From Deltaproteobacteria bacterium RIFOXYA12_FULL_61_11 (GTDB lineage: Bacteria > Bdellovibrionota_F > JAHFAK01 > YA12-FULL-61-11), in the NCBI GenBank assembly GCA_001799195.1, contig MGSU01000082.1:1-13650 (forward strand): a stretch of DNA of 13,650 nt, in the 5' to 3' direction. A program made the translations under genes and the position numbers. Below, piece by piece: positions 1 to 13,650 of this stretch; position 1 is the stretch's first letter; each line of letters opens with the position of its first letter. A model generated the notes under the pieces. It had not been told where the DNA came from, did not search any database, and saw only the letters and a program-made list of their open reading frames with translations.

Positions 1-1692
1 ATCCGCAGCCACTTCTGGGCAGAGGACAACCTTCATCTCCTCTATCTCCAGGATCAGGGCGGGGACGAAAACTATCACCTCTTCTCCGTCGACCTGCGTA
101 CCAAGGTGGTCCGGGATCTCACCCCCTTCCAGGGTATCAAGGCGGCCGAGGTCTTCCTCGATCCCAAACACCCGAACGAGCTCCTGGTCGGGCTCAACCT
201 GCGCGACCGCACGGTCTTCGATCTCCATCGTCTCGAGCTCACCACCGGTGCTCTCGTCCTCGACACCGAGAATCCCGGCGATGTCGTTTCCTGGCTGGTC
301 GATCCCCAGTTCCAGGTCCGCGCTGCCTTCGCGCAGAGTGCGAAGGACGCCTCCACCACGGTGCGCGTGCGCCAGGGGAAGATGAAGCCCTGGAAAGACC
401 TCCTCACCTGGCCGTTCGGCGAGAACGGAGCGGTGCTCGATTTCGGTGCCAACGGCAAGACGCTCTTCGTCGAAACCTCGCTCGGCACGGACACTACCCG
501 GTTGGTGACCCTCGATACCACCAATGGCAAAGAACTCAAGACCTTGGCCGCCGATCCCAGCGCCGATCTCGGGGAAGTGCTCATCCATCCGGAGCACCGG
601 CGAGTCCAGGCAGTGGGTTTCAACTACCTCCAACAACGCTGGCAGGTCGTGGACAAGACCATCGAGGCGGATTTCGCAGCCCTGGCCAAGCTCGGGGAAG
701 GCGAATTCTCGCTCATTTCCCGCGACCGGGCCGACCGCCTCTGGATCGTCGCTCTCGAGCTCGACGATGGACCCATGGCCTGGTACCTTTACCGCCGCGA
801 CACTCGTGCCGCCGAGTTACTCTTTGTCAACCGTCCCGACCTGGCCGGCCATACCCTCGCCAAGTACCGGCCGGTCGAGATCCCGACCAGCGACGGTCTG
901 AAGCTGGTGTCCTACCTGACCCTCCCGGTGGGTGTACCGGAGAAGAACCTGCCCCTGGTCCTTTTCGTCCACGGCGGTCCCTGGGGTCGCGATACCTGGG
1001 GCTTCGACCCCACCGCACAGTGGCTGGCCAATCGAGGCTATGCCGTGCTGCAGGTCAATTTCCGCGGTTCTACCGGTTTCGGCAAGCGTTTCCTGAATGC
1101 CGGGAACCGCGGTTGGGGAGTGGGCGCGATGCAGCGCGACCTCACCGAGGCCGTGGCCTGGGCCGTAAACAGGGGGTTGGCCGACCCGAAGAAGATCGGC
1201 ATCTACGGCGGATCCTATGGTGGGTATGCGGTGCTTGCCGGGCTGACCTTCACACCGGACGTCTACGCCTGTGGGGTCGACCTCGTCGGTCCTTCCAACT
1301 TGCGGACGTTGTTCCAGGCTATTCCCCCCTATTGGGAGCCGTTCAAACGGGAATTCGTGCTGCGCGTCGGCGACGTCGAGGCCGATGACGCCCTGAACCG
1401 CGCGCTCTCTCCGCTCTATCACGCAGCCAAGATCCGCGCTCCCCTCTTGGTCGGTCAGGGAGCCAACGATCCGCGGGTGAACATCGCCGAGGCCGAGCAG
1501 ATCGTCGAGGCCATGCGGAAGAACAAGTTGGCGGTGCAGTACGTCGTGTATGCCGACGAGGGCCACGGCTTCGCCCGCCCGGACAATCGTCTGGATTTCT
1601 ACGGCCGGGTCGAAGAATTCCTGGCCAAGCACCTCGGCGGCCGGGTGGAAGCTCGCCACGATATACCAGGCAGTTCGGCCCAGGTCCGTTGA
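1..1692 (+). CDS. S9 family serine peptidase (prolyl oligopeptidase type), 5'-truncated
   Basis: This frame is open from the first base, so the gene begins upstream of the window; 563 codons are visible. The GTG at 106 is internal, because coding text of the family's beta-propeller type (GGDENYHLF) lies before it. Codons 1 to about 290 are the propeller part, and about 300-550 form an alpha/beta-hydrolase domain. The catalytic triad is visible: nucleophile Ser at codon 405 in GGSYGGY, Asp at codon 490 in GANDPRVN, and His at codon 522 in DEGHGFARP. The HGGPWGRD segment near codon 325 fits the oxyanion-hole region. Family members cleave short peptides, often after Pro or as dipeptidyl- or acylaminoacyl-peptidases; the specificity here cannot be read. 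Export is plausible, but any signal peptide would be off the window. No T-tract terminator follows the stop. The family call is very secure; the exact subfamily is not. Confidence 0.95.
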   Translation: MRSHFWAEDNLHLLYLQDQGGDENYHLFSVDLRTKVVRDLTPFQGIKAAEVFLDPKHPNELLVGLNLRDRTVFDLHRLELTTGALVLDTENPGDVVSWLVDPQFQVRAAFAQSAKDASTTVRVRQGKMKPWKDLLTWPFGENGAVLDFGANGKTLFVETSLGTDTTRLVTLDTTNGKELKTLAADPSADLGEVLIHPEHRRVQAVGFNYLQQRWQVVDKTIEADFAALAKLGEGEFSLISRDRADRLWIVALELDDGPMAWYLYRRDTRAAELLFVNRPDLAGHTLAKYRPVEIPTSDGLKLVSYLTLPVGVPEKNLPLVLFVHGGPWGRDTWGFDPTAQWLANRGYAVLQVNFRGSTGFGKRFLNAGNRGWGVGAMQRDLTEAVAWAVNRGLADPKKIGIYGGSYGGYAVLAGLTFTPDVYACGVDLVGPSNLRTLFQAIPPYWEPFKREFVLRVGDVEADDALNRALSPLYHAAKIRAPLLVGQGANDPRVNIAEAEQIVEAMRKNKLAVQYVVYADEGHGFARPDNRLDFYGRVEEFLAKHLGGRVEARHDIPGSSAQVR

Positions 1693-1769
1693 AACCGTCG
1701 TCTCGGTTCGGGCGACATGACAACCGGGTTGACAGGTTTTCGCCTGCATCGGTTGCAGAGATGGCTCCC

Positions 1770-1800
1770 TTGATTATTCAACTCATTGTTGTTCTATAAG
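1770..1800 (+). promoter_or_regulatory. candidate sigma-70-type promoter for the Kazal lipoprotein gene
   Basis: In an AT-rich patch that stands out from the GC-rich surroundings, TTGATT (1770-1775) could be a -35 element and TATAAG (1795-1800) a -10 element. The 19-base spacing is longer than ideal; TCTATA (1793-1798) gives 17 bases but a poorer -10 match. A start near 1806 would give a leader of about 70 bases containing the hairpins at 1825-1854. This is a pattern match only. Confidence 0.3.
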
Positions 1801-1824
1801 AAGATTATCCAATTTCAAACGATA

Positions 1825-1854
1825 ACCTGGCTCGGCTCTTGCTGAGAGCCAGGT
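1825..1854 (+). promoter_or_regulatory. leader with two mutually exclusive hairpins
   Basis: ACCTGGCTC (1825-1833) and GAGCCAGGT (1846-1854) are perfect 9-base inverted arms around a 12-base loop. Inside, GGCTCT (1834-1839) can instead pair with AGAGCC (1845-1850), using part of the same right arm, so the two stems cannot coexist. The structure ends 11 bases before the ribosome binding site of the lipoprotein gene. It has no T-tract, so it is not a classical terminator. A leader role in translation or mRNA stability is inference. Confidence 0.4.
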
Positions 1855-1865
1855 CCGTATCGATC

Positions 1866-1872
1866 GAGGGGG
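1866..1872 (+). promoter_or_regulatory. ribosome binding site that decides the lipoprotein start
   Basis: GAGGGGG abuts the ATG at 1873 directly but lies 6 bases before the second in-frame ATG at 1879. The spacing favours 1879 as the true start, shortening the protein by two residues. Confidence 0.65.
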
Positions 1873-1878
1873 ATGGTC

Positions 1879-2508
1879 ATGCGTACGCTCTGCTCTCTGC
1901 CGCTTCTCTTCCTCTTCTCGTTCCTGGCCTGCGGCGGAGACGAGACGGTTGGACCGCCCCAAGGTTTCAATGATCTTCCCCCCGGGACAACCACCACGGT
2001 CGCTACTCCCACCACCCCCCAAACCGCAGCGAACAACGGGAATGCGCAACAGGTCCCCTACACGCCCCAGGTTTCCGATCCCGCCGAGACCTGCGACTGC
2101 CCTCCGCAAGGAGAACAGGTCTGCGGCGTCGACGGGAAGACCTATGCCGGCGCTTGTCAGGCGGCGTGTGTCCAGATCGATGTAGCGGCGCGCGGTGCCT
2201 GTCAGACCGCGACGACCACCTCTCCGGCGACGACCGCTCCCACCGTCCCTGCGGCCACGACTCCTGCGCAAGGTGCGACCCAGGACGACCTCACCACGGC
2301 CCTCGGCGGATTGCTCGGTGGAGGAGACACCGCGGGCGGAGCGGGTGACCTCGGCGGTCTGCTCGAGCAGTTCCTCGGAGAGGAGGACGGTACGGGCGAA
2401 GGTGTCGACCTCGACGCTCTCATGGAACAATTCGGGGACGCGAGCGTCGATCTCAGTGAGCTCGGCCTCGAGGACGAGGACGATCTCGCGGGATTCTTTG
2501 GGAATTGA
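1879..2508 (+). CDS. lipoprotein with one Kazal-type domain
   Basis: This 209-residue protein begins with a lipoprotein signal peptide: Arg2, a hydrophobic stretch and a lipobox FLAC with the lipidated Cys at residue 18. A Thr/Pro-rich spacer follows (about 25-66). Residues 70-108 form a Kazal-like domain with six cysteines (72, 74, 82, 93, 97, 108) and the family core VCGVDGKTY. Kazal domains are known mainly as serine protease inhibitors or secreted binding modules. Another Thr/Ala/Pro linker (about 109-133) leads to a Gly-rich, strongly acidic tail (about 135-209) with repeated short LLGG/LEQF-like units and very few basic residues. The protein should be anchored in an outer or inner membrane leaflet. 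It follows an S9 peptidase gene, but Kazal domains are not known inhibitors of that family, so a functional link is not established. The inhibitory role and partner are unknown. Confidence 0.85.
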   Translation: MRTLCSLPLLFLFSFLACGGDETVGPPQGFNDLPPGTTTTVATPTTPQTAANNGNAQQVPYTPQVSDPAETCDCPPQGEQVCGVDGKTYAGACQAACVQIDVAARGACQTATTTSPATTAPTVPAATTPAQGATQDDLTTALGGLLGGGDTAGGAGDLGGLLEQFLGEEDGTGEGVDLDALMEQFGDASVDLSELGLEDEDDLAGFFGN

Positions 2509-2529
2509 TGCCCGCTGAAGACACGTCCA

Positions 2530-3471
2530 TCACGGTGCCGGGCGCTCTTTGTCTTCCGGACGGAACAACGAGACCACGATAGAAGCAAGGATGAGACCTC
2601 CGATCACCCCCAGGGAAAAACCGATCGGCACCTTGTAGAGATCCATGATCAGCATTTTCAACCCGACGAACGCCAGTACCAGACCCAGACCTACCTTGAG
2701 GTAACGAAAACGGCCGAGCATACCCGCCAACAGGAAATACAGGGCGCGAAGTCCGAGAATAGCGAAGATATTGGAGGTGAAGACGATGAAGGGGTCGGTG
2801 GTGATGGCGAAGATGGCGGGTATGGAATCGACCGCAAAGACGATATCGGTCGCCTCGATCACCAGGAGCACGATCAGGAGCGGAGTTGCGAAAAGTTTTC
2901 CCCCTTCGCGCACGAAGAAAGCGCTGCCTCGATACTCCGGAACCGCGCGCAGGATGCGCCGGAAGAATTTCAGCGCCGGATTGTGTGCGGGATCGACCTC
3001 GGCTTCGCGCTGACGCAGTAATTTAAACCCGGTGTAGACCAGGAAGACTCCGAAAACATACATGATCCAATGGAAACGCTGGACCAGCGCAGCTCCGGCG
3101 ACGATGAAACCGGCTCGCATGACCAGCGCGCCGAGGATACCCCAAAAAAGAATGCGGTGCTGGAGTATCGGAGGTACGGCAAAATAGGAAAAAAGCACAA
3201 GAAAAACAAATAAATTATCAACCGAGAGGGCTTTTTCGAGCAGGTACCCGGTGAAGAACTCCAGGGCTCGTTCGGCGCCGTACCAGTGTAAAATGCCGTA
3301 GTTGAAGAGCAGCGACAATCCTATCCAGACCAGGGTCCAGATGAGGGCTTCCCGCATTCCCACGGAGTGTTCTCGACGGTGGAACACCCCCAGATCGAGG
3401 GCCAGCATGGCCAGGATAAATACCAAGAAAGCGATCCACATGAACGGGGTACCAATACCTTGGAGCTGCAT
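2530..3471 (-). CDS. TerC/Alx family integral membrane protein (putative metal exporter)
   Basis: This 313-residue, multi-pass membrane protein is of normal length for the TerC/Alx family. Hydrophobic segments are visible at about 10-30, 43-62, 82-100, 107-130, 134-150, 195-223, 229-250, 258-276 and 283-302. The two family signatures are present: ALSVDNLFVF (81-90, acidic Asp85) and EATDIVFAVDSIPA (206-219, Asp209 and Asp215), the acidic intramembrane residues thought to carry metal. Family members are linked to manganese export or to tellurite and pH stress; some load metal onto exported proteins. The ATG has a clear GGTGAGG site (3479-3485) 7 bases upstream. It lies 50 bases downstream of the acyl-CoA synthetase stop on the same strand, so co-transcription is likely, and there is no room for a yybP-ykoY manganese riboswitch. 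Codons around residues 80-98 are unusually AT-rich, including a TTA leucine. Confidence 0.93.
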   Translation of the reverse strand: MQLQGIGTPFMWIAFLVFILAMLALDLGVFHRREHSVGMREALIWTLVWIGLSLLFNYGILHWYGAERALEFFTGYLLEKALSVDNLFVFLVLFSYFAVPPILQHRILFWGILGALVMRAGFIVAGAALVQRFHWIMYVFGVFLVYTGFKLLRQREAEVDPAHNPALKFFRRILRAVPEYRGSAFFVREGGKLFATPLLIVLLVIEATDIVFAVDSIPAIFAITTDPFIVFTSNIFAILGLRALYFLLAGMLGRFRYLKVGLGLVLAFVGLKMLIMDLYKVPIGFSLGVIGGLILASIVVSLFRPEDKERPAP

Positions 3472-3521
3472 GGTTGCGCCTCACCTTTGTGAGATTATTG
3501 GTTGTAGCATCGTGTTCATGC

Positions 3522-5630
3522 TCAAACTCCTCCAGCGATCAGCATGCGGGCATCGAGGGCAATCACCCCCTTGCCCTCGGGCAGGACCCGCAACGGATTG
3601 ATGTCCAGTTCCAGGAGGGTTGGACACGCGGCCATCAGCGCTGAAACCCGTACCACGGCTTCAACGAAGGCCTCGATATCCCCAGCAGGTTTGCCGCGCA
3701 GGCCGCGGAGGATCGGCGCGGTCCCCAATCGGGCCAAGCGCTCCCGCACCTCTTCCGCCGTGGTTGGGCAGAGCACGTGCTGCACGTCCCGAAAAACCTC
3801 GACGTAGATCCCGCCATAGCCGAAGGTCAGCACCGGACCGAAAGACGGGTCGCGCCGGCCGCCGACAAACAGGTCGTAGCCTTCCTCGGCCATCTCGGCC
3901 AAGCGGACACCCTCGAAACGGGCCTGGGGCAGAGCAGCAAGGAGATTGCGGCGGACCGAGAGGAAACCGGCCTCGACCTCGGCACCATCGCGCAGCCCCA
4001 GGAGCACGCCCCCGACATCGGATTTATGCACAGCTTCGGGCGAGACGACCTTGAGTACCAGCGGGTAGTCGAGTTCCTCGGCGAGGAGGCGAGCTTGCTC
4101 GGGGGTCGAGGCGAGCCAGGACCGGGCCACGCGGAGACCGCAGCCGGCAATGATTCCAAGGGTTTCTTCGCCGATCATGCCGGAGAGGGTGGCGATCGCG
4201 TCACAGGTCGAGGCCGGCAATGCAAGAGGTTGACCGGCCGGTACCGTGCGTCGCCGCTCGAGCTTTGCGTGGAAATCGCTCTGGGCGCGCAAGGCCCTCA
4301 CCATCTCTTCCGGAGTGTTGAAAATGGGCACGCTCAGGTTGCGCTTGATCTTCGCCATGGTCTCGGCCTGGCCGAAGAGACAGATGCCCAGCGGCTTGCC
4401 CGAGGACATGATCGAACCGATGACCTCTTTGCTGATGTCGGTGCGGAACATGCGATGGAAGACGTCATCGCCCGGAGGCATGGCCGGCCACTGGCTGACG
4501 TAGACCACGGCATCGACCCCCTCGGCGTGCATGGCCCGGAAGAGCACATGCGCATATGCCTGGGGTTGATAGACGTCCCCGAGGTCGAGCGGGTTGGAGA
4601 ACCGGATCACCCCTGCATTGGTGTACTGGGCCACCTCGCGGTAGAACTCCTCGCCCGGATCGGCGAACTGGAAGCCCATTTCTTCGCACAGATCGGCCAT
4701 GATCACCGCGAAACCGCCGGCCGGACTCATCACCATAATCCTGTTCCCACGCATCGGGGGCAGGAGGAAGGCTTTGGTTACCGGAAGGAAGTCCTTGAAA
4801 TTACGTATCCTAATGATGCCTGCGCGTTCGATGGCCGAGTCCAGGAGGGCATCGTCGTTGCTGAGCGCCGCGGTGTGGCTCTGGGCCGCACGGCGGCCCG
4901 CGGTGGTGTGATTGGCCTTGAGCAGGATGATCGGTTTGTCGATCGTTTCGGCCAGCTCGCACAGCTCCCGACCGCGGGCCATGCTCTCGAGGTACATGCC
5001 AATGACCTTGGTCTCGGGGTCGGAGGCGAAGTAGCGCAGGAAGTCCAGTTCGTCCAGGTCGAGTTTGTTGCCGATGGAAGCGAACTTGGCGAGCCCAATG
5101 TTCTCCTCGGAGAGGAAGTTCCACAGCATCAGGCCGGCGCCGCCGCTCTGCGAGATGAGCGAGAACCCGCCCTTGGGCGGAGGGTACAGGGGCACGAAGG
5201 GCAGACACATGCCGTTGGCCGTATTCGCGACCGTGACTCCGTTGGGACCGACCAAACGGACGCCGTAACGCTCCACGCACGTCTTCAGCCGGGTTGCCAG
5301 TTCCTCGCCCTCACCGCCGAGTTCGTTGAAACCCGCGGCCGGGATGGCGACATAGGGAACACCCGCGGCGCCGCATTCCTCGACGATGCTTGGGATGAAC
5401 TTTGCCGGGACCAGGGTCACCGCCAGGTCAGGAACGACCGGCAGGTCTCCGAGGCGCTGGAACAACCTGATGCCGTTGACGTGGAGGTCCGTGGTGGTCG
5501 GATTGAGACCGAAGATGCGACCCTTGTACCCCCAACGGATCAGGTTCTCGGAAATAATCCTTGGGATGTTCTCGGCCTTTGCCGAAAGTCCATAGATCAC
5601 GATCGAGCTCGGGTAGAACAGTTTGTCCAT
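3522..5630 (-). CDS. acyl-CoA synthetase (NDP-forming), fused alpha-beta type
   Basis: The 702-residue protein matches the single-chain layout of ADP-forming acetate/acyl-CoA ligases: CoA-binding Rossmann domain (about 4-130), succinyl-CoA-ligase-like domains (about 150-290 and 295-440), linker, and ATP-grasp domain (about 480-695). The expected phospho-histidine is His252 in AAQSHTAALS. The ATP-grasp part shows VHKSDVGGV (534-542), FGPVLTFGYGGIYVEV (597-612) and ELDINPL (674-680). The family interconverts acyl-CoA + NDP + Pi with free acid + CoA + NTP, in the cytoplasm; the acyl substrate (acetate, propionate, branched or aryl acids) cannot be read. An upstream in-frame GTG at 5678 would add 16 residues, but it lacks a ribosome binding site and its text lies in a dispersed repeat. 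The ATG at 5630 has AGAGGG at 7 bases and family similarity begins right there. A TerC gene follows on the same strand. Confidence 0.93.
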   Translation of the reverse strand: MDKLFYPSSIVIYGLSAKAENIPRIISENLIRWGYKGRIFGLNPTTTDLHVNGIRLFQRLGDLPVVPDLAVTLVPAKFIPSIVEECGAAGVPYVAIPAAGFNELGGEGEELATRLKTCVERYGVRLVGPNGVTVANTANGMCLPFVPLYPPPKGGFSLISQSGGAGLMLWNFLSEENIGLAKFASIGNKLDLDELDFLRYFASDPETKVIGMYLESMARGRELCELAETIDKPIILLKANHTTAGRRAAQSHTAALSNDDALLDSAIERAGIIRIRNFKDFLPVTKAFLLPPMRGNRIMVMSPAGGFAVIMADLCEEMGFQFADPGEEFYREVAQYTNAGVIRFSNPLDLGDVYQPQAYAHVLFRAMHAEGVDAVVYVSQWPAMPPGDDVFHRMFRTDISKEVIGSIMSSGKPLGICLFGQAETMAKIKRNLSVPIFNTPEEMVRALRAQSDFHAKLERRRTVPAGQPLALPASTCDAIATLSGMIGEETLGIIAGCGLRVARSWLASTPEQARLLAEELDYPLVLKVVSPEAVHKSDVGGVLLGLRDGAEVEAGFLSVRRNLLAALPQARFEGVRLAEMAEEGYDLFVGGRRDPSFGPVLTFGYGGIYVEVFRDVQHVLCPTTAEEVRERLARLGTAPILRGLRGKPAGDIEAFVEAVVRVSALMAACPTLLELDINPLRVLPEGKGVIALDARMLIAGGV

Positions 5631-5690
5631 GGTGCAGCCCTCTGGGGTTTCGCCGACCGGGCAACGTCCCATGTCCACTCGCGAAGGTCA
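5619..5690. repeat. dispersed repeat, copy 1 (overlaps acyl-CoA synthetase start)
   Basis: This stretch aligns without gaps to 8309-8380; by hand count 56 of 72 bases agree (about 78%). The best-kept blocks are the TGTCCATG region, CCTCTGGGG, TCGCCGACC and GAAGG. Similarity stops abruptly to the left of 5619 and fades right of 5690. On the minus strand it covers the ribosome binding site, the ATG and the first four codons (MDKL here, MDTL in the other copy). It could be a mobile non-autonomous element, a REP-type repeat, or a duplicated gene-start fragment; two copies do not decide. Confidence 0.7.
5638..5643 (-). promoter_or_regulatory. ribosome binding site of the acyl-CoA synthetase, inside a dispersed repeat
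   Basis: Read on the minus strand, AGAGGG lies 7 bases before the ATG at 5630 and supports that start over the upstream GTG at 5678. The site belongs to the 72-base repeat that recurs at 8309-8380, where the equivalent bases also read CAGAGG upstream of an ATGGAC. Confidence 0.55.
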
Positions 5691-5748
5691 ATTGGACGAC
5701 AACCCACAGTACACCACATCCTGCGGATCGGGCAGGGGGTGAGGTTTA

Positions 5749-5784
5749 TCCCTCCCCCTCGCGGGAGGGACAGAGGGAGGGGGA
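5749..5784. repeat. C/G-tract inverted repeat with alternative stems
   Basis: TCCCTCCC (5749-5756) and GGGAGGGA (5763-5770) form a perfect 8-base stem around a 6-base loop. Alternatively TCCCCCTC (5753-5760) can pair with GAGGGGGA (5777-5784). Translations of this text resemble the PLSLPRGGG-type peptides commonly mis-predicted from dispersed intergenic repeats in many bacterial genomes (recollection, not searched). The three closely spaced G-runs might also form a G-quadruplex-like structure if a fourth run joins. Confidence 0.65.
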
Positions 5785-5791
5785 CATGCGC

Positions 5792-5816
5792 TAGGGGCGA
5801 AAATTTTTCGCCCCTA
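5792..5816. repeat. 25-base near-perfect palindrome (GGGGCGAAAA type)
   Basis: TAGGGGCGAAAA (5792-5803) and TTTTCGCCCCTA (5805-5816) are perfect 12-base inverted arms separated by a single T. The symmetric AT core with GC flanks could act as an intergenic REP/MITE-like unit, a DNA-binding site, or a bidirectional terminator-like stem, although no run of T follows outside the stem. Similar GTAGGGGCGA palindromes are common dispersed repeats in environmental bacterial genomes (general knowledge). Confidence 0.75.
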
Positions 5817-5854
5817 CGACCTACGATCCCAGGTGAGGGTAATGTAGGCGGTGG

Positions 5855-5883
5855 TGTACAGGTTCGATGCGTTGTTCTAGTAT
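5855..5883 (+). promoter_or_regulatory. weak candidate promoter for the VWA/FGE lipoprotein gene
   Basis: TGTACA (5855-5860) and TAGTAT (5878-5883) match sigma-70 boxes at four of six positions each, with an ideal 17-base spacer. Transcription would start near 5890, leaving a leader of about 60 bases. The match is weak and it is only the best I found in the spacer. Confidence 0.22.
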
Positions 5884-5951
5884 CGGTCTGAGGTACACGG
5901 ATCGTGGCCGATGCAGTGAACCGCACCAACAACTAAGTACCAGAGCACCAG

Positions 5952-8285
5952 ATGAATATTACGAATATCGTAGCCCTATCCGCCGTCCCTCGATGGTGCC
6001 TCGGTTGCTCCTTGCTGCTGGGTGTGCTTCTCGCTTGTACCGAGGAGCAGAACAAGACCGGTTCTCTTGACGACACCTCCTCGGACCGACTCATCGACGA
6101 CCAGAGCACCGACGAGGCTAACCCTCTCGCGGATACCAGTACGGATGTCATAGGCGAGGAGAGCGAGGAACTTCAACCGGCAGAAAACAATAGTGAGGAA
6201 CCGTTACCCACGCCGAGTACCGATCCCTCGGACGACAATGAGTCTGAGCCCGAGAACAATCCCGACCCGAGCGCAGATGCCCTGACAAGATCCTTGCTGT
6301 TCCGACACACCACCCTCCGGACTCTTGGTCCGAGTACCATAGTGCTCTCCTTCACACTCTTCGATGGGAACGGCGATCCATTGCCCGACTTCGCTGCAGA
6401 GCAATTCATGGTCTCGGAAAACGAGAAAGCAGTGCCGATCACGGTAGCGCAACAAGCTATCATTAATAATGAAGGTAGATTTGGATTGTACACGATGTTG
6501 CTTCTCGACATGAGCGGTTCCCTGGTTCAAGCAGCCAACCTCGCCAAGCTCCGGGAGGCGGTGTCAACCTTTCTCGATACCACCGTCACCGACCAACGAG
6601 TAGCCATCTACCTGTTCGACGGTCGAGCTGATCTCCAGCGCGTGAGTGACTTCACCTCCAACCGCATCGCCCTCGGCCAAGCTCTCAACGCCACCTTGAC
6701 GGATGGGTATTCCATCGCCGATCAGTCAACGAATCTCTATGGAGCGATCATCTCCGGGCTCGAACTCCTCAACCAGCATGAAAACGGTGAGATCCTCGAG
6801 AAGGCCCTGGTTGTACTCACCGACAACACAGACCAAGCCGGTCGGCGCAGCCAGGAAGACCTTACCAATGCCCTGAGGCAGAGCGAACACCCCATTTTTT
6901 CCATCGGACTAGGTAATGAGGTGGCCGAAGCAGAGCTTCAACGTATCGGCAACGACGGTAAGAACTACCTCAAGGCCGTCACGATTGACAACCTAGCAGA
7001 AGTTTTCGACGAAGTGGCCGACCGGCTCCACACGATCACCCATAGCCATTACCTCCTGGCCTACTGTAGTCCCAAGCGCAACGGTTCCGGCAATCACGAG
7101 GTAACCTTGACAGCGCATCAAGGCGAGGCGCGAGGATCCATCAGCCAATCGTTCAGCGCTGACGGTTTCGAAGGAGGTTGCAACCCATTGACGCTCGCCG
7201 ACCTCGACGGCGATGGTTTTCCCAACATCCTCGAATTGGGCTATGGTTCTAATCTCCTCGATCGCAACAGTGGTCCCCCTGACCTCGACGGCGATACCAT
7301 CATCGACGAGCAGGACGAGGATCTCGATGGTGACGGTCAACCCAACTCCTTTGAAACCAACCACGGCAGCGACCCTTCTAACGGGGGAAGCAGGGTGCCC
7401 GACCTGGACGGCGATGGCCTCGCCGACGAAGAGGACGACGACCAAGACGGCGACGACGTCAGCGATGACCAGGACAACTGTCCCCTCCAAAGCTCTTCTT
7501 TCGACGCCGACCGGGACGGCTGCGACGACTATGGCCTGACCAATTCCTGGATCGGTATCTCTGGCGGGACGTTCCTGATGGGCAACGCGAACGGCCTCGG
7601 CAACGAACGTCCCGCGCATCGGGTGACACTCTCGGCCTATCGCATCTTGAGGTATGAGGTCACTGCCGGCGAATTCCGAGCGTGTATCGATGCCGGAGGG
7701 TGTAGCCCTGCAACCCGCGAAAACACTCGATGCACCTACGACCTCGAAGGCAAAGAAGGTCACCCCATCAACTGCCTGACCTGGAGCCAAGCTAGAGCCT
7801 ATTGTCAGTGGCTTGGAGGGGACCTCCCGACAGAGGCCCAGTGGGAGTACGCGGCCAGGGGAAACGATGGCCGGAGCTATCCCTGGGGCAACCTGATGGA
7901 GACGAACCGGGCGAATTTCTGGGACAGTTTCGACCCCTATGATTCGATGGACTTGCCCTACACGCAGTGCGGTGGGCCGACCACCACGGTCGGTTACTTC
8001 GACGGTTCGCTGCATGGCACCTATCGGACCCTCGACGGACGTTCTCCCTTCGGACTCCACGATCTGATCGGCAACGTCCGTGAATGGGTCCTCGATTGGT
8101 ACGACACGTATCCCGCCGATGCGCAGACCGATCCGTCCGGTCCTTCGACCGGAGCGACCAGGGGGATGCGTGGGGGAAGTTGGCATAGCGAACGCGCTAA
8201 CGTGTCCTCCGTGTCTCGCGTCGGAGGCGCCCCCGACACCGGGTACGACGATACCGGGATGCGCTGTACCGCCCCCATGAGATAA
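5952..8285 (+). CDS. lipoprotein with VWA, TSP3-like and catalytically degenerate FGE domains
   Basis: This 777-residue surface lipoprotein has a signal peptide ending in LLAC (Cys29) and an acidic, Asn/Pro/Ser-rich low-complexity linker (30-110). A von Willebrand A domain follows (about 175-370), with MIDAS residues DMSGS (Asp186, Ser188, Ser190), a Thr260 candidate, and Asp291 in LTDN. Residues 415-527 carry repeated DLDGDG/DQDGDD units like thrombospondin type 3 calcium-binding repeats. Residues 533-777 have the FGE-sulfatase/C-type-lectin-like fold: GGTFLMG, LPTEAQWEYAARG, GNVREWVLDWY and MRGGSWHS. True formylglycine-generating enzymes carry two Cys after GGS; the aligned positions here are Ser746 and Val751, so oxidase activity is not expected, and a binding or scaffold role is inferred. 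The ATG has no good ribosome binding site (only a weak CCAGAG), but the signal peptide begins immediately. It stands alone on its strand between minus-strand genes. Confidence 0.9.
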   Translation: MNITNIVALSAVPRWCLGCSLLLGVLLACTEEQNKTGSLDDTSSDRLIDDQSTDEANPLADTSTDVIGEESEELQPAENNSEEPLPTPSTDPSDDNESEPENNPDPSADALTRSLLFRHTTLRTLGPSTIVLSFTLFDGNGDPLPDFAAEQFMVSENEKAVPITVAQQAIINNEGRFGLYTMLLLDMSGSLVQAANLAKLREAVSTFLDTTVTDQRVAIYLFDGRADLQRVSDFTSNRIALGQALNATLTDGYSIADQSTNLYGAIISGLELLNQHENGEILEKALVVLTDNTDQAGRRSQEDLTNALRQSEHPIFSIGLGNEVAEAELQRIGNDGKNYLKAVTIDNLAEVFDEVADRLHTITHSHYLLAYCSPKRNGSGNHEVTLTAHQGEARGSISQSFSADGFEGGCNPLTLADLDGDGFPNILELGYGSNLLDRNSGPPDLDGDTIIDEQDEDLDGDGQPNSFETNHGSDPSNGGSRVPDLDGDGLADEEDDDQDGDDVSDDQDNCPLQSSSFDADRDGCDDYGLTNSWIGISGGTFLMGNANGLGNERPAHRVTLSAYRILRYEVTAGEFRACIDAGGCSPATRENTRCTYDLEGKEGHPINCLTWSQARAYCQWLGGDLPTEAQWEYAARGNDGRSYPWGNLMETNRANFWDSFDPYDSMDLPYTQCGGPTTTVGYFDGSLHGTYRTLDGRSPFGLHDLIGNVREWVLDWYDTYPADAQTDPSGPSTGATRGMRGGSWHSERANVSSVSRVGGAPDTGYDDTGMRCTAPMR

Positions 8286-8400
8286 TCGGTCGCTTCATAG
8301 TGCACACGCAGTGTGTCCATGTTGCAAACCTCTGGGGGCTCGCCGACCAGGCAAAGACCTCTGTCCTCTTGTGAAGGCAAAGGTTTACGGGTTCCTTGGA
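8286..8400. other. convergent spacer, mostly dispersed repeat
   Basis: The spacer separates the lipoprotein stop from the methyltransferase stop. It holds a small CACAC-GCA-GTGTG inverted repeat (8303-8315) and then the second copy of the 72-base repeat. No stem followed by a T-run is visible, so neither gene has an obvious intrinsic terminator here. Confidence 0.5.
8309..8380. repeat. dispersed repeat, copy 2 (convergent spacer)
   Basis: This is the gapless counterpart of 5619-5690 at a constant offset of 2690 bases, about 78% identical by hand count. Here the minus-strand ATGGAC leads only into the antisense of the lipoprotein gene, so this copy starts no recognisable gene. That argues the repeat is an element in its own right or a fossil gene start. 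Confidence 0.7.
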
Positions 8401-9132
8401 TCAGAGGATCGGGACCTTTCCCTGATCGGGGATTCCTTTCCTCCGCCACCACACGCCGGTGCATTCGGGGAACCTGGTACCGTCGACGGCCAAGAACTTC
8501 CTGGCCGTGTCGTCGCCGAAGAAGAAACGAAGCAGTTCTTCCCCGCGTTGTTTGCTGGGGAATTCGTAGTCCGTGCGTAGCCATGTACGCTTGAAATGAT
8601 ACCTCTCCTCGAGCAGGGCGAAATAGTCGGCCAGGCCCGGGGGAGGATCGAACGGGTTGGTGTGCCCCGTCCCCAAGGTCTCCAACACCACGGCAATACC
8701 ACCGGGCAGGAGGACCCGCAGCATTTCTTCCAAGGCCTGCTCGATCTGAGGCCTCCAAGCGGCCTCGTTCCACACGGTTTGGTGTCCGTAGGTCCATCCG
8801 GCAAGGGCAAGGTCAGCACTGGTATCGGGCACCGGCACCCGGATATTATCGGCTACGTTGAGCTCGCAGTTCTTGATCCCGAGCTGAGCGAGCGTATGCC
8901 GAGCCACCTCGACCATGGTGGGTTCGAGCTCGAACGCTTTGATAGAATGCACGTAAGGTGCGAGCAGTCTCGTCAACCGTCCCGTCCCCGCCCCGAATTC
9001 GATCACCTTCGCGCCCTCGAGAGGCCTCAGGGCTCGGAGGCAGGAGAGTACCGTACCATCGCGATCCTCCCAGCGAACCAGTTCATCATAGCGCTCTGGT
9101 TGCAACCTATAGATTTCTCTTGCGTCTGGCAT
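8401..9132 (-). CDS. class I SAM-dependent methyltransferase
   Basis: The 243-residue protein has the Rossmann methyltransferase fold. Motif I is VIEFGAGTGRLTRLL (43-57), the acidic end of strand 2 is AFELEP (66-71), and a post-motif segment DLALAGWTYGHQT lies at 107-119, with LLPGGIAVVLETLG at 141-154. A C-terminal cap (about 165-235) with many aromatic and basic residues may form the substrate pocket. The length is normal for small-molecule methyltransferases of the UbiE/Methyltransf_11 type; the substrate is unknown. A longer frame reaches 9195, but that would overlap the radical SAM gene by 59 bases. The ATG at 9132 lies 4 bases after the upstream stop, with a weak GGGGG site inside the preceding gene, and MPDAREIYRLQPERYDELV is a typical methyltransferase N-terminus. 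Tight coupling to the radical SAM gene suggests one pathway. Confidence 0.88.
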   Translation of the reverse strand: MPDAREIYRLQPERYDELVRWEDRDGTVLSCLRALRPLEGAKVIEFGAGTGRLTRLLAPYVHSIKAFELEPTMVEVARHTLAQLGIKNCELNVADNIRVPVPDTSADLALAGWTYGHQTVWNEAAWRPQIEQALEEMLRVLLPGGIAVVLETLGTGHTNPFDPPPGLADYFALLEERYHFKRTWLRTDYEFPSKQRGEELLRFFFGDDTARKFLAVDGTRFPECTGVWWRRKGIPDQGKVPIL

Positions 9133-9136
9133 GCGA

Positions 9137-10522
9137 TCAAGCCCCCAGGGCAACCTGCACGGGACGCCGCTGGCCCACCTCCAGGAGAGGTCCACGGAAG
9201 GTGAGATCGCCGAGGGGGTAGCCCTCGCGTTGGGCGGCTTCTTTTCTCAAGAGCAGGTTGATGAAGACATAGGCCTGGAACATGCGCCGGTTACCCGTGT
9301 TGGTCGGTTCGAGCAGACGTCCGGCGATGGAGGCGAGACTATAGAAGGCTTTACGCGCGGCCACGCAGCGTTCGGTGACCACCTCGGCCGGGAGGGACAG
9401 GGAGAAGGGCGCCATGCCGTACCGATAAGCGTCGTCGAGCCACCAACGAGGGAAGAGCAAGCGACCCTGGGCTTCAAGCCTCTTGTACAACGGAGTACCG
9501 GGAAAGGGAGTGAGGTGGTTGAAGGCCACCATGAAAATCCGCTGCTGCCGACAGAACTCGACCGTGCGTTCGAAGCTCTCCAGGGTATCGTGCTCGTAAC
9601 CGAAAACAAAGGTGGCGTAGAGCCGCAAATGGTGCCGGCGTAAACGTTCGAGCGCGGCCTCAAGCCCGTCGTCGGTATGGGCAAAGGTTTTCCCCATGGC
9701 CGCTAGGTTCCGCGGGTCGAGACTCTCGAACCCGATCAACACCCCTTGGCAGCCGCTCCGGTGCAGCAGCTCGAGCAATTCCTCGTCGCGGGTCATGGTG
9801 ATCGCGGCCTGCCCTACCCACTGCACACCGAGCGGTTCTATGGCGCGGCACAGTTCTTTGGTCCAAGCCGGAGTCGCGACGAGGTTATCGTCGACGAAGA
9901 AGAGGAGGGGTGGATTCTTTCCGAAAGAACGGATCTCTTCGACGATGGAGGCAACCTCGCGGCGACGGTGGGTCGAGGCGAAGAAGGTCTGAATGGCGCA
10001 GAAATCACAGCTCATCCGACAGCCACGGCTGGCCTCAAGCAACCGCAGGTCGAGGTAGTGTTTACCGGCAAAGATGCGCCGGTCCGGACGGACCGAACCA
10101 AGTGCAGGGCGCCGTTCCGCTTGGTAGCGACGGCACAGCCCCCCCGAGCGGAAATCCTCGAGCAACCGGGGCCACGTCTCCTCTGCCTCACCGAGGACTA
10201 TGGCCTCGGCATAACGCTGGACCTCGTCCGGGACCAGGGTTGCATGGAAACCGCCCATGACCACGGGGATGCCCCGGCGGCGGTATTCGGTGGCGATCTG
10301 ATAGGCTCGTTTCGCGGTATACGTCTCTACGCTGAGCGCGACGAGGTCGGTCGGGTCGTCGAAGGGGATGGGCTCCAAGCGGTCGTCGTGGAAGACCACC
10401 TCGATTCCGGAGGGGGTCAGAGCGGCGAGTTGAGCCGGCGGCAAGGCTTCCATCTGCCAGGACTTGATATAGTCCTTGCCCGGGATTCTGCCGATACAGG
10501 GATGAATGAGGGTTACTTTCAC
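9137..10522 (-). CDS. B12-binding-domain radical SAM protein
   Basis: The 461-residue protein has an N-terminal cobalamin-binding-like Rossmann domain (about 1-140; HDDRLEPIPFDDPTDLVALSV, VVMGGFHATLVPDE) without the DxHxxG motif, as is usual for this superfamily. The radical SAM barrel (about 155-370) carries the 4Fe-4S cysteines in SRGCRMSCDFC: Cys168, Cys172 and Cys175. Later barrel features are FFVDDNL, GFESLDPRNL and TPFPGTPLY. The C-terminal part (about 375-461) resembles the region often annotated DUF4070, which is also found in B12-radical SAM enzymes acting on lipids or natural products. Methylation or other radical chemistry on an unidentified substrate is expected. The start is GTG, supported by a strong GGAGGT. 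A methyltransferase gene follows 4 bases after its stop. Subfamily assignment is tentative. Confidence 0.9.
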   Translation of the reverse strand: MKVTLIHPCIGRIPGKDYIKSWQMEALPPAQLAALTPSGIEVVFHDDRLEPIPFDDPTDLVALSVETYTAKRAYQIATEYRRRGIPVVMGGFHATLVPDEVQRYAEAIVLGEAEETWPRLLEDFRSGGLCRRYQAERRPALGSVRPDRRIFAGKHYLDLRLLEASRGCRMSCDFCAIQTFFASTHRRREVASIVEEIRSFGKNPPLLFFVDDNLVATPAWTKELCRAIEPLGVQWVGQAAITMTRDEELLELLHRSGCQGVLIGFESLDPRNLAAMGKTFAHTDDGLEAALERLRRHHLRLYATFVFGYEHDTLESFERTVEFCRQQRIFMVAFNHLTPFPGTPLYKRLEAQGRLLFPRWWLDDAYRYGMAPFSLSLPAEVVTERCVAARKAFYSLASIAGRLLEPTNTGNRRMFQAYVFINLLLRKEAAQREGYPLGDLTFRGPLLEVGQRRPVQVALGA

Positions 10523-10720
10523 GCTGGACCTCCGATGCTGCTTGCCTAGCAGGGGACGTTTTTGCAGTCAACCACGATGCGTTCTTCCCACTCGCCCCCC
10601 CAAGACTGAAGGCATACCCGAGGCGAGAACAAGGTTGTTGCACTTTCAGCCGCGAGCAGGCATTATGGCGCTCCTCCGGGAGGACAGCGACCCCACCCGA
10701 GGGCGAGGAGGTTCGGCGCA
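10523..10720. promoter_or_regulatory. divergent promoter region between radical SAM gene and pilT
   Basis: Both operons must start here. On the minus strand TTGACT (10566-10571) and TAGGCA (10543-10548) are spaced by 17 bases, but the -10 match is poor and the leader would be very short, so this is weak. For pilT I found no convincing sigma-70 or sigma-54 pattern. The rest has no obvious repeat or small gene. Confidence 0.35.
10528..10533 (-). promoter_or_regulatory. ribosome binding site supporting a GTG start
   Basis: On the minus strand GGAGGT sits 5 bases before the GTG at 10522, a near-ideal arrangement that supports GTG as the start of the radical SAM gene. Confidence 0.75.
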
Positions 10721-11791
10721 ATGGCCAAGATCGACAGCCTTTTCAGGTTCATGGTCGAGCAGAAGGCCTCGGACATGCACCTCTCGTCCGGAGCCCCCCC
10801 CAAGCTTCGGGTCAGCGGCAGCGTGGTCTCGCTGGAAATCAAGGAACTGAGCAACGAAGAGTGCCGTTTCCTCCTCTACGAGATCATGCCCGACCGCATT
10901 CGCGAGCAATTCGAGGCGACCGGAGACGTGGACTTCGCCTACTCGATCAACGGATTGGCCCGGTTCCGAGCCAACGTCTTCCAACAGCATCGCGGCGTAG
11001 CAGCCGTGTTCCGGCGCATCCCGGAGAAGATCCTCTCGGTCCAGGACCTGGACCTGCCCAAGGCGATCCTGCAATTCACTGACCTGACCAAGGGCCTCGT
11101 GGTGGTCACCGGAGCCACGGGCAGCGGAAAATCCACCACCCTGGCGGCCCTGATCGACCACATCAACTCGACCCGCGAGGATCACCTCATCACCCTCGAG
11201 GACCCGATCGAGTTCGTCCACCAGAACAAACGTTGTCTGGTCAACCAGCGCGAGGTCCACCGCCACACCCAGTCTTTCGCCGCGGCCCTTCGAGCAGCCT
11301 TGCGCGAGGACCCGGACATCATCCTGGTCGGCGAGATGCGCGACCTGGAGACCATCGAGCTGGCCCTGACCGCGGCAGAGACAGGCCATTTGGTCTTCGG
11401 CACCCTCCACACCAACAGCGCGCCCAAGACCATAGAACGCATCATCAACGTATTTCCCCACGGTCAGCAGGAACAGATCCGCATGCTGCTCTCCGAGGGG
11501 CTCAAAGGAGTCATTGCGCAGAACCTTTTGCGCCGCACCGGCGGTGGCCGGGTCGCCGCGCTCGAGGTCATGGTCGGCACTCCCGCGGTGAACAACCTCA
11601 TCCGCGAGAACAAGGTCTTCATGATCAAATCCTCGATCCAGACCGGTAAGAGCCTGGGCATGCAGACCATGGATCAGTCGCTGCTCGACCTGGTGCAACG
11701 GCGTCTGGTGGCCGTGGAAGAGGCGATGCGCTTCGCCGAGGACAAGTCCATTTTCCGGGTCGAACGGCCCGGCCCGAAGGGGGCGAAATGA
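10721..11791 (+). CDS. pilT: type IV pilus retraction ATPase PilT
   Basis: This 356-residue hexameric ATPase drives pilus disassembly and retraction at the inner-membrane base, powering twitching motility. The N-terminal PAS-like domain (1-100; ASDMHLSSGAPPKLRVSG) is followed by the RecA-like core: Walker A GATGSGKST (131-139), Asp box ITLEDPIEFVH (157-167), Walker B DPDIILVGEMRD (197-208, catalytic Glu205), and His box TGHLVFGTLHTNSA (221-234). The C-terminal AVNNLIRENK (289-298) corresponds to the AIRNLIRE retraction motif, and GMQTMDQSL (313-321) is also typical. All catalytic residues are intact and the length is normal for PilT. A strong AGGAGG (10706-10711) lies 9 bases before the ATG. 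The stop overlaps the next start by four bases (ATGA). It diverges from the radical SAM gene. Confidence 0.95.
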   Translation: MAKIDSLFRFMVEQKASDMHLSSGAPPKLRVSGSVVSLEIKELSNEECRFLLYEIMPDRIREQFEATGDVDFAYSINGLARFRANVFQQHRGVAAVFRRIPEKILSVQDLDLPKAILQFTDLTKGLVVVTGATGSGKSTTLAALIDHINSTREDHLITLEDPIEFVHQNKRCLVNQREVHRHTQSFAAALRAALREDPDIILVGEMRDLETIELALTAAETGHLVFGTLHTNSAPKTIERIINVFPHGQQEQIRMLLSEGLKGVIAQNLLRRTGGGRVAALEVMVGTPAVNNLIRENKVFMIKSSIQTGKSLGMQTMDQSLLDLVQRRLVAVEEAMRFAEDKSIFRVERPGPKGAK

Positions 11792-13605
11792 CAGCCTTCG
11801 ACGCGGACCAGAGCAAGGATTTCCTGCAACGTCTGTTCGCTTCCTGCTTGCGGCAGGGCATCGACGCCTGCTCTTTCCGGCCCGAGGCTCCACTGGTGGT
11901 GCGACTCGGCGGCCAGGAGAGAGAGAACCCCAAGGTGCCCATCGACCAGGATACTTTTCGCGCCCTGGTACGTGAACTGACCAGCCAGGTCGAAGGTCCA
12001 CCACCGACCTCCTGGACCGAAATCCAAGACAAGACCTTCTCCTATTCCTTGGTGATCGAGGGCCGCGAACGGAATTTTACCGTACAGCCGAGCCTTACTG
12101 CGGGGCGTCCCACGCTGGTGGTGTTCCTCGCCGGCCAGGGAACAACTCCAGCCAAGGAAATGGCAAGCCCTCGCCCGGATGCCCTGGTGGTGCCGACCGA
12201 ACCTCCATCCGAAGCCTCGATGGACCCCACCGGTCCAGACGCGAAAAGCCCGTCCCAGCCCACTCCACCTCCCTCGGGTATCTCCTTCCAGGGGGAACTC
12301 GACCCGATCTTCACCGGAGCCGCGGGTTGCACCAACCCCGCGGAGTTCGACGACCCAGCTCTGGCCACGTGGTGGAACGACTTCTGCGAGACCCTGTCGG
12401 CCGTAAAGAACCCCAAACCCAAGGATTTGGTACTCAACCCGAACAAGCCTCACCCCTATGTCACCGTGGTTGGGGGTATGCTCCCGGTCCGGTCGGTCAA
12501 GCTCGAGCAAGAACGTAAGATCACCGAACGGCTCGCACGGCTGATGCTCGCGGCTTCGAAGAACCCCGAGGCCCAACTGGCCTTCGAGCGGCAGGGGGTC
12601 CCCTCCTTCGAATCGGACATCGCGTATCGCACGGGGTCAGGTCGGCGTTATCGCGTCAACCTGGCCGATTGTTTCGACGGGCTTTCAGAACACGGCCTGC
12701 ATGTGACCATGCGGGTGTTGGCCGAGGAACCGCTGACCGTGGACCAGCTCGGGTTGCCCAAGGTGGTGGTCGACACCGTGGCTTCCCTGCGCATGGGCCT
12801 GGTGTTGATCAACGGAGTCACCGGCAGCGGCAAGTCCACCACCATGGCCGCCCTGCTCGACTACCTGCTCAAGACCAAAAGCATCAACCTCTTGACCATC
12901 GAAAATCCGATCGAGGTCGTATTCCCGGCGCAGCGTTACCCCAACAGCGTGGTCCTGCAACGCGAGGTCGGGATGCACACCGTGAATGCGCAAACGGCCA
13001 TGCGCAGCGCGGTGCGCCAGACCCTCAACGTGGCCATGGTCGGAGAGATCCGCAATGCCTCTGACATGTCCTTGGCCTTCGACCTTGCCATCAGCGGCCA
13101 CCTCATCCTGGCGACCCTGCACGCCAACACCATCGCCGAGAGTGTGACCCGCATCGTCGAGATGTATCCGCCCAGCGACGAGAAAAAGGTCCGAGAGGTG
13201 CTCGCCACCCAGTACAAACTCGGCCTAGCGCAGATCCTGGTCACCGGGAAACCGAAACCCGTCGAACTCGTGTTGGAAATCATGCGCATGAACGCTGAGG
13301 TCCAGGCCCTGATCCTGGGCCACCAGGATCAGGATCGTCAGCTCAGCATGCGCGAATTGCTCGAAGCGTATTCCGAGGTCCAGGGCAGTAAGTCCCTCGA
13401 CCAGGCCCTGGTCGAACTCTATAACCAGGAGCGCATCGACGAGGATACCCTGATGTTCAACTCGCCCGATCCGGATGGCCTGGTGCTCCGTCAGAACAAG
13501 CTGGGTCTCTCCTTGTCGAAACGCTGGGATCCGACCGGAGCCCTGGTCGAAGCGGCCCTCGACCGCACCTTCAAGCTGGTCTCCAGCGAAGGAGAGCAGA
13601 AGTGA
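11788..13605 (+). CDS. PilT-like ATPase paralogue with duplicated N-terminal domain
   Basis: At 605 residues this is much longer than PilT or PilU (about 350-380). Residues 10-115 look like a degenerate copy of the PilT N-terminal domain (GIDACSFRPEAPLVVRLGG; FSYSLVIEGRERNFTVQ). A Pro/Ser/Thr linker (about 119-165) follows, then a second copy of that domain (about 205-320; KPKDLVLNPNKPHPYVTVVGG) and the RecA core (about 325-500). Walker A GVTGSGKST (343-351), catalytic Glu420 and His-box TLHANT (443-448) are kept. However, the Asp box is IENPIE instead of LEDPIE (Asn373), Walker B entry is TLN instead of DPD (412-414), and MRD becomes IRN (Asn423). The tail (510-605) retains a SLDQALVELYNQERI segment comparable to the PilT C-terminus. 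Its ATG overlaps the pilT stop (ATGA), implying translational coupling. A PilU-like accessory or modulator of retraction is inferred. Confidence 0.88.
   Translation: MTAFDADQSKDFLQRLFASCLRQGIDACSFRPEAPLVVRLGGQERENPKVPIDQDTFRALVRELTSQVEGPPPTSWTEIQDKTFSYSLVIEGRERNFTVQPSLTAGRPTLVVFLAGQGTTPAKEMASPRPDALVVPTEPPSEASMDPTGPDAKSPSQPTPPPSGISFQGELDPIFTGAAGCTNPAEFDDPALATWWNDFCETLSAVKNPKPKDLVLNPNKPHPYVTVVGGMLPVRSVKLEQERKITERLARLMLAASKNPEAQLAFERQGVPSFESDIAYRTGSGRRYRVNLADCFDGLSEHGLHVTMRVLAEEPLTVDQLGLPKVVVDTVASLRMGLVLINGVTGSGKSTTMAALLDYLLKTKSINLLTIENPIEVVFPAQRYPNSVVLQREVGMHTVNAQTAMRSAVRQTLNVAMVGEIRNASDMSLAFDLAISGHLILATLHANTIAESVTRIVEMYPPSDEKKVREVLATQYKLGLAQILVTGKPKPVELVLEIMRMNAEVQALILGHQDQDRQLSMRELLEAYSEVQGSKSLDQALVELYNQERIDEDTLMFNSPDPDGLVLRQNKLGLSLSKRWDPTGALVEAALDRTFKLVSSEGEQK
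13591..13596 (+). promoter_or_regulatory. ribosome binding site of the next gene
   Basis: GGAGAG lies 5 bases before the GTG at 13602, which itself overlaps the TGA of the preceding gene. The arrangement supports a real start at the window edge. Confidence 0.6.
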
Positions 13606-13650
13606 TACTCGATCCCGAGAATGCTCTCAAACAGGTGGTCCTGCAGTTGC
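13602..13650 (+). CDS. start of a further gene in the pilT operon, 3'-truncated
   Basis: A GTG start overlaps the stop of the PilT paralogue (GTGA) and is preceded by a good ribosome binding site. Sixteen codons are visible, reading MILDPENALKQVVLQL, after which the window ends. The sequence is too short to assign a family. Its coupling to two pilus ATPase genes suggests a pilus or motility role, perhaps another ATPase paralogue or a regulator; this is inference. Confidence 0.6.
   Translation, partial: MILDPENALKQVVLQL

Follow-up and report, generated by a model that had tools for sequence, protein, structure and literature searches.

Many bacteria keep the helper motor PilU in the slot beside pilT, and the locus analysed here raises the question of what a diverged PilT relative with two N-terminal domains (NTDs) does in that position. 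The window, i.e. the whole stretch of DNA analysed (13,650 nucleotides), comprises positions 1 to 13,650 of the forward strand of contig MGSU01000082.1 from Deltaproteobacteria bacterium RIFOXYA12_FULL_61_11 (GCA_001799195.1; GTDB lineage Bacteria; Bdellovibrionota_F; JAHFAK01; YA12-FULL-61-11). The features referred to below are:

10721..11791, + strand: pilT, encoding an ordinary PilT of 356 residues (TIGR01420, 481.7 bits; cut-off 319.1)
11777-11783, + strand: ribosome-binding-like AAGGGGG preceding the start of the second gene
11788-11791, + strand: ATGA overlap of the pilT stop and the second gene start
11788..13605, + strand: second gene, encoding a diverged PilT/PilU-type ATPase of 605 residues with tandem NTDs
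11803..12135, + strand: NTD1, extra PAS-like PilT/GspE-type N-terminal domain, residues about 6-116
12136..12330, + strand: Pro-rich linker, predicted disordered, residues about 117-181
12349..12723, + strand: NTD2, the N-terminal domain belonging with the core, residues about 188-312
12730..13467, + strand: RecA-like ATPase core with C-terminal helices, residues 315-560
12814..12837, + strand: Walker A GVTGSGKS, residues 343-350, K349 retained
12895..12915, + strand: Asp box TIENPIE, residues 370-376, E372 and E376 retained, N373 for Asp
13015..13056, + strand: Walker B region RQTLNVAMVGEIRN, residues 410-423, E420 and R422 retained, T412, L413, N414 and N423 altered
13096..13122, + strand: His box GHLILATLH, residues 437-445, H438 and H445 retained
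13297..13320, + strand: position of the AIRNLIRE motif, here EVQALILG, residues 504-511

The second gene, its reading frame as originally predicted, occupies the PilU slot, directly downstream of pilT on the same strand. A survey of pilT adjacency, suggested with the original prediction, showed that 58 of the 80 PilTs nearest to the window PilT are followed on the same strand by a PilT-family paralogue. The ATGA overlap behind AAGGGGG makes translational coupling of the two genes likely, and no sigma-70-like promoter was found between them. As it adjoins pilT and is probably co-translated with it, the gene likely encodes a PilT partner. The contig ends 45 bases past its stop codon. The host genome also encodes further pilus or T2SS ATPases, T2SSF platform proteins and prepilins, and a PilM-like protein scoring below the cut-off; a second PilT-like gene of this genome (L005, G000:C74) clusters with paralogues of PilT from other phyla rather than with the window PilT. 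Elsewhere in the window, positions 5952-8285 encode a large protein in which a VWA-like middle part, Asp-rich repeats (thrombospondin type 3-like) and a formylglycine-generating-enzyme-like C-terminal end were recognized by eye, and a 704-aa frame at 3777-5891 (+), probably a high-GC3 by-product, runs antisense to an acyl-CoA-synthetase-like gene (3522-5678, -).

For the N-terminal region, a PilT NTD profile was built from 38 sequences and compared with individual segments using hhalign, with 200 shuffles per segment. Residues 1-125 scored 32.75 over 95 columns (matched residues 12-112) and residues 196-330 scored 33.07 (matched residues 198-292), with the shuffles of both averaging 11.5 (sd 2.4-2.5) and none of 200 reaching the real score (top shuffle 22.6 and 25.1, respectively). 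In a control, 84 pieces of unrelated window proteins scored at most 16.3, and the linker scored at chance level, the same as its own shuffles. Pfam missed both domains, returning no usable match when NTD1, NTD2 and the C-terminal tail were searched alone. Both of the PilT-NTD-like segments originally predicted are therefore borne out, with bounds better set as listed above than at residues 10-115 and 205-320.

The fold of NTD1 was predicted with AlphaFold2 from the single sequence, without alignment, which for residues 1-125 yielded a model (pLDDT 72.2, pTM 0.63) with the secondary structure H-E-E-E-H-H-E-E-E. Foldseek searches of this model against the PDB gave PilT, DotB and PilB/PilF as best matches (E from 3.4e-5), and all 41 matches at E <= 0.001 were PilT, PilU, DotB or PilB/PilF. 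Superposition with VIA-align reached a Z of up to 10.9 (rmsd about 3 Å, 100-112 residues), compared with a Z of only 4-5 for unrelated PAS domains; residues 10-115 match the PilT fold, as had been supposed. In a full-length model based on 35 sequences, NTD1 is followed by the linker (about 116-181, low confidence), NTD2 and a single core, mostly at pLDDT >90. NTD2 and core superpose on PilT (6OJX, 3JVV, 5FL3), with 350 residues of about 195-572 aligned at a Z of 40.3 and an rmsd of 2.1 Å, a fit that leans on the PilT alignment used for modelling; the model of residues 1-125 alone is free of this dependence. In overall build the protein is what was originally described, a diverged PilT/PilU-type ATPase in which two PilT-like NTDs and a disordered linker accompany one RecA core.

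GspE and PilB share the order of N-terminal domain, flexible linker, N2 and core, and their unrelated N1 domains recruit the ring to the inner-membrane machine. Since the domain order is alike and N2 domains of PilB and GspE are among the structure matches of NTD1, NTD1 could be such a recruiter, linking the ring to a platform or signalling partner instead of to PilT. However, the N1 of GspE and PilB is an MshEN/T2SSE_N domain, whereas the first domain here matches the PAS-like N2/PilT fold, and a Pfam search of residues 1-205 gave no match, to N1 or otherwise; we regard this role as unlikely.

The two NTDs differ in the residues they preserve. NTD2 retains R287, R289, R309, D213 and G229, whereas NTD1, as far as sequence alignment alone can tell, keeps Arg and Gly in the R-x-x-G turn and lacks both the ASD-motif Asp and an Arg equivalent to R309. 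Because it keeps its arginines, NTD2 likely completes the neighbouring active sites, with NTD1 as an accessory; having lost residues that serve a neighbouring active site, NTD1 is probably a non-catalytic duplicate of an N-terminal domain. Compared directly, NTD1 and NTD2 scored 14.0, a near-chance value by which neither is detectably nearer to the other than to PilT, and which favours no source (PilT, PilU or NTD2) for NTD1.

Roughly 185 relatives were checked, and none has two NTDs before one core. Residues 1-205, searched in 386 genomes, matched only themselves, and a search with the protein in the species collection gave eight pattern matches, none a relative. The phylum consists of two genomes, the second of which gave only a generic PilT match; the lineage is nearly unsampled. 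No match came from the 7 genomes of the phylum to which the nearest PilT in the tree belongs. Among further long PilT-family open frames, no extra NTD was seen in the PilT-type extensions tested, with the exception of L122 (G036:C109:37000-42000, minus strand), and several of the long frames read like non-coding frames. L122 is a 741-aa PilT-PilT fusion with the order NTD-core-NTD-core and intact Walker A, Asp-box and Walker B motifs in both units; like the 605-residue protein it has two NTDs within one PilT-family chain, but as parts of two full NTD-core units rather than before a single core. In a PilB/GspE-type frame (L120, core score 177.5), the N-terminal region gave a partial NTD score of 23.3, and at four loci (L063, L065, L071, L114) pilT is followed by two PilT-family paralogues in a row, giving three tandem genes. 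In the literature searched, no tandem-NTD PilT is described, judging by titles and abstract openings. As sampling is finite, the absence of tandem-NTD relatives means rarity, not uniqueness: this is a strongly diverged PilU-like ATPase with a duplicated NTD, known from one genome.

Of the PilT-type signature, the Walker A Lys, the Walker B Glu and the His box are present, in agreement with the original prediction, and so is the Asp-box Glu pair; the EDP Asp of the Asp box is replaced (N373), and the AIRNLIRE motif of PilT proper (consensus A-I/V-R-N-L-I-R-E at these columns) is lost, being degenerate as in PilU. One Asp-box Glu holds Mg in PilT and PilB (E164 in G. metallireducens PilT), where the Walker B Glu is catalytic (PMC6858323, PMC5424180); their equivalents here are E376, the second of the two Asp-box Glu, and E420. 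The substitutions of acidic motifs described originally (LEDP to IENP, DPD to TLN, MRD to IRN) are all seen, the three Asn being encoded by AAT, AAC and AAT, each one base away from an Asp codon. Their weight was assessed in a survey of 179 PilT-family proteins (the 80 PilTs nearest to the window PilT, 61 downstream paralogues, and 38 from other genomes). Position 373 is Asp in 179/179 relatives. Position 412 is Asp in 80/80 PilTs and Ala in 59/61 PilUs. At position 414, Asp in 80/80 PilTs, 21 of the 61 PilUs have another residue (Asp 40, Lys 18, Gln 1, His 1, Asn 1), and at position 423, again Asp in 80/80 PilTs, 28 of the 61 have Thr, Ser, Asn or Glu (Asp 32, Thr 14, Ser 11, Asn 2, Glu 1). 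By this survey N373 is exceptional, while the changes at 412, 414 and 423 fall where PilU varies; the prediction's own caveat that the Asn positions might be ordinary in PilU applies to 414 and 423, not to 373.

The Asn residues had been taken to mark a weak or regulatory subunit. With Mg ligand, catalytic Glu, Walker Lys and His box all kept, a weak or dead enzyme does not follow from them, although a weak ATPase is possible. V. cholerae PilU retains all catalytic motifs and yet is weak, a property that its authors attribute to loose packing at the interfaces (PMC13142100). In the form originally proposed, the subunit would enter mixed hexamers with PilT and slow retraction, a reading to which the replacement of an otherwise invariant Asp at 373 and the co-expression with PilT lend some weight. 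It is countered by the retention of all ATP and Mg contacts, by the variability of two of the three Asn positions in ordinary PilU, and by precedent, as in V. cholerae PilT and PilU each assemble into a homohexamer of their own (PMC6821130); the identity to the neighbouring PilT, about 28%, also makes a poor fit for mixed rings. We consider such hexamers quite improbable.

The divergence extends beyond these motifs. Forty columns are at least 97% conserved in the 179 relatives, and the 605-residue protein keeps 31 of them, including K349, E372, E376, E420, R422, H438, H445, R287, R289 and R309. The nine losses (S212K, N361L, D373N, L405M, P413L, I416A, T436S, R492V, A555L) are more than in any of the 179 relatives, each of which loses at most 12.5%. 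With 222.6 bits (E 8e-66) against TIGR01420 (PilT/PilU), under the curated cut-off of 319.1, it is a clear homologue outside the curated boundary; Pfam T2SSE (PF00437, secretion ATPase superfamily) matches at 96.3 bits, above the cut-off of 24.9. Its end branch measures 4.2 changes per column (median 0.2), and because of this long branch no tree placement is favoured: in AU tests, joining it with either PilU clade, the window PilT or other paralogues was not rejected (p 0.35-0.55). The long branch, the lost near-invariant residues and the occurrence as a singleton gene in an incomplete MAG would suit a paralogue under relaxed constraint that is heading for loss, with NTD1 as a chance leftover of a partial pilT duplication. 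But the frame has 605 open codons with a GC3 of 0.69-0.85, NTD1 still folds PAS-like in single-sequence prediction, and the losses spare all ATP-contacting residues; that every ATP-handling position survives so long a branch points to selection for ATP binding and hydrolysis. Decay of this kind is therefore improbable in our view.

What remains is the comparison with PilU, a PilT-dependent ATPase (PMC6821130, PMC6762196) that is weak alone and needs PilT (PMC6821130, PMC13142100). The 605-residue protein resembles PilU in lying directly 3' of pilT, in combining an NTD with a RecA core and intact catalytic motifs, in the degenerate AIRNLIRE, in T412, N414, N423 and A446 at positions where PilU departs from PilT, and in Q411, which is Gln in 57/61 PilUs, unlike PilT (Glu in 79/80). 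It differs from PilU in the second PilT-like NTD with its 65-aa linker, in N373, L413, L361, V492 and S534, and in its very long branch, which the tree does not join to PilU; from PilT it differs in the TIGR01420 score, the loss of AIRNLIRE and the extra NTD.

The CTD of PilU has been modelled on the NTDs of PilT (PMC13142100), and for V. cholerae, Teipen et al. 2025 (as cited in PMC13142100) report that PilT K36 and PilU D366 form a salt bridge. At the K36 position, the window PilT carries Ser37 (10829-10831); in Aeromonas and Shewanella PilTs the same residue is numbered 36, agreeing with the numbering of the paper. The K36 column is Arg or Lys in all 57 surveyed PilTs having a downstream PilU gene, whereas of the 22 that lack such a gene, 8 have Pro, Ser or Glu there, a comparison confounded by phylogeny and contig ends. 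At five more tandem loci of other genomes the column is basic in four and Pro in one (L028). With Ser37, the described contact cannot apply unchanged to the window PilT, which suggests that the standard PilU contact does not secure this PilT and that there may be room for NTD1 as a substitute. Stacking on PilT by way of the extra domain, also raised originally, has better precedent than mixed hexamers, with the Ser at the contact position counting against it. NTD1 might dock in trans, on the PilT ring or the next auxiliary ring, as a domain-swapped tether replacing the PilT-K36/PilU contact; we think this rather improbable, but if true, it would be a new way of coupling two retraction rings.

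At roughly even confidence, we favour a PilU-like, PilT-dependent auxiliary retraction motor in which NTD1 is a non-catalytic docking or gating module, docking or gating being its likeliest role on present analysis. Such a motor would be co-translated with PilT and would build a ring of its own, presumably a hexamer, through NTD2 and the RecA core, as, to our knowledge, every PilT-type ATPase does. The ring would bind and probably hydrolyse ATP, depend on PilT and perhaps stack on it. Domain architecture, kept catalytic residues and gene position are what the analysis itself establishes, whereas hexamer, ATPase activity, PilT dependence and stacking are drawn from what is known of PilT and PilU. 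NTD1 on its 65-residue tether would dock the ring to a partner, whose identity is the most tentative element of the model (the PilT ring, the platform protein PilC or another regulator), or alternatively gate the ring. Against the PilU-like motor we count the tree, which does not place the protein with PilU, Ser37 of the window PilT, the nine lost near-invariant positions, and the occurrence in one genome only, with no homologue showing NTD1 conserved.

The locus bears on how PilU rings get recruited to PilT and activated. Here a protein in the PilU position carries a spare copy of the very domain that PilU is modelled to touch on PilT, and meanwhile its PilT partner is without the basic residue reported for the PilT–PilU contact. 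If NTD1 does the docking, it could be expressed alone for binding tests, which would make the question of coupling directly testable.
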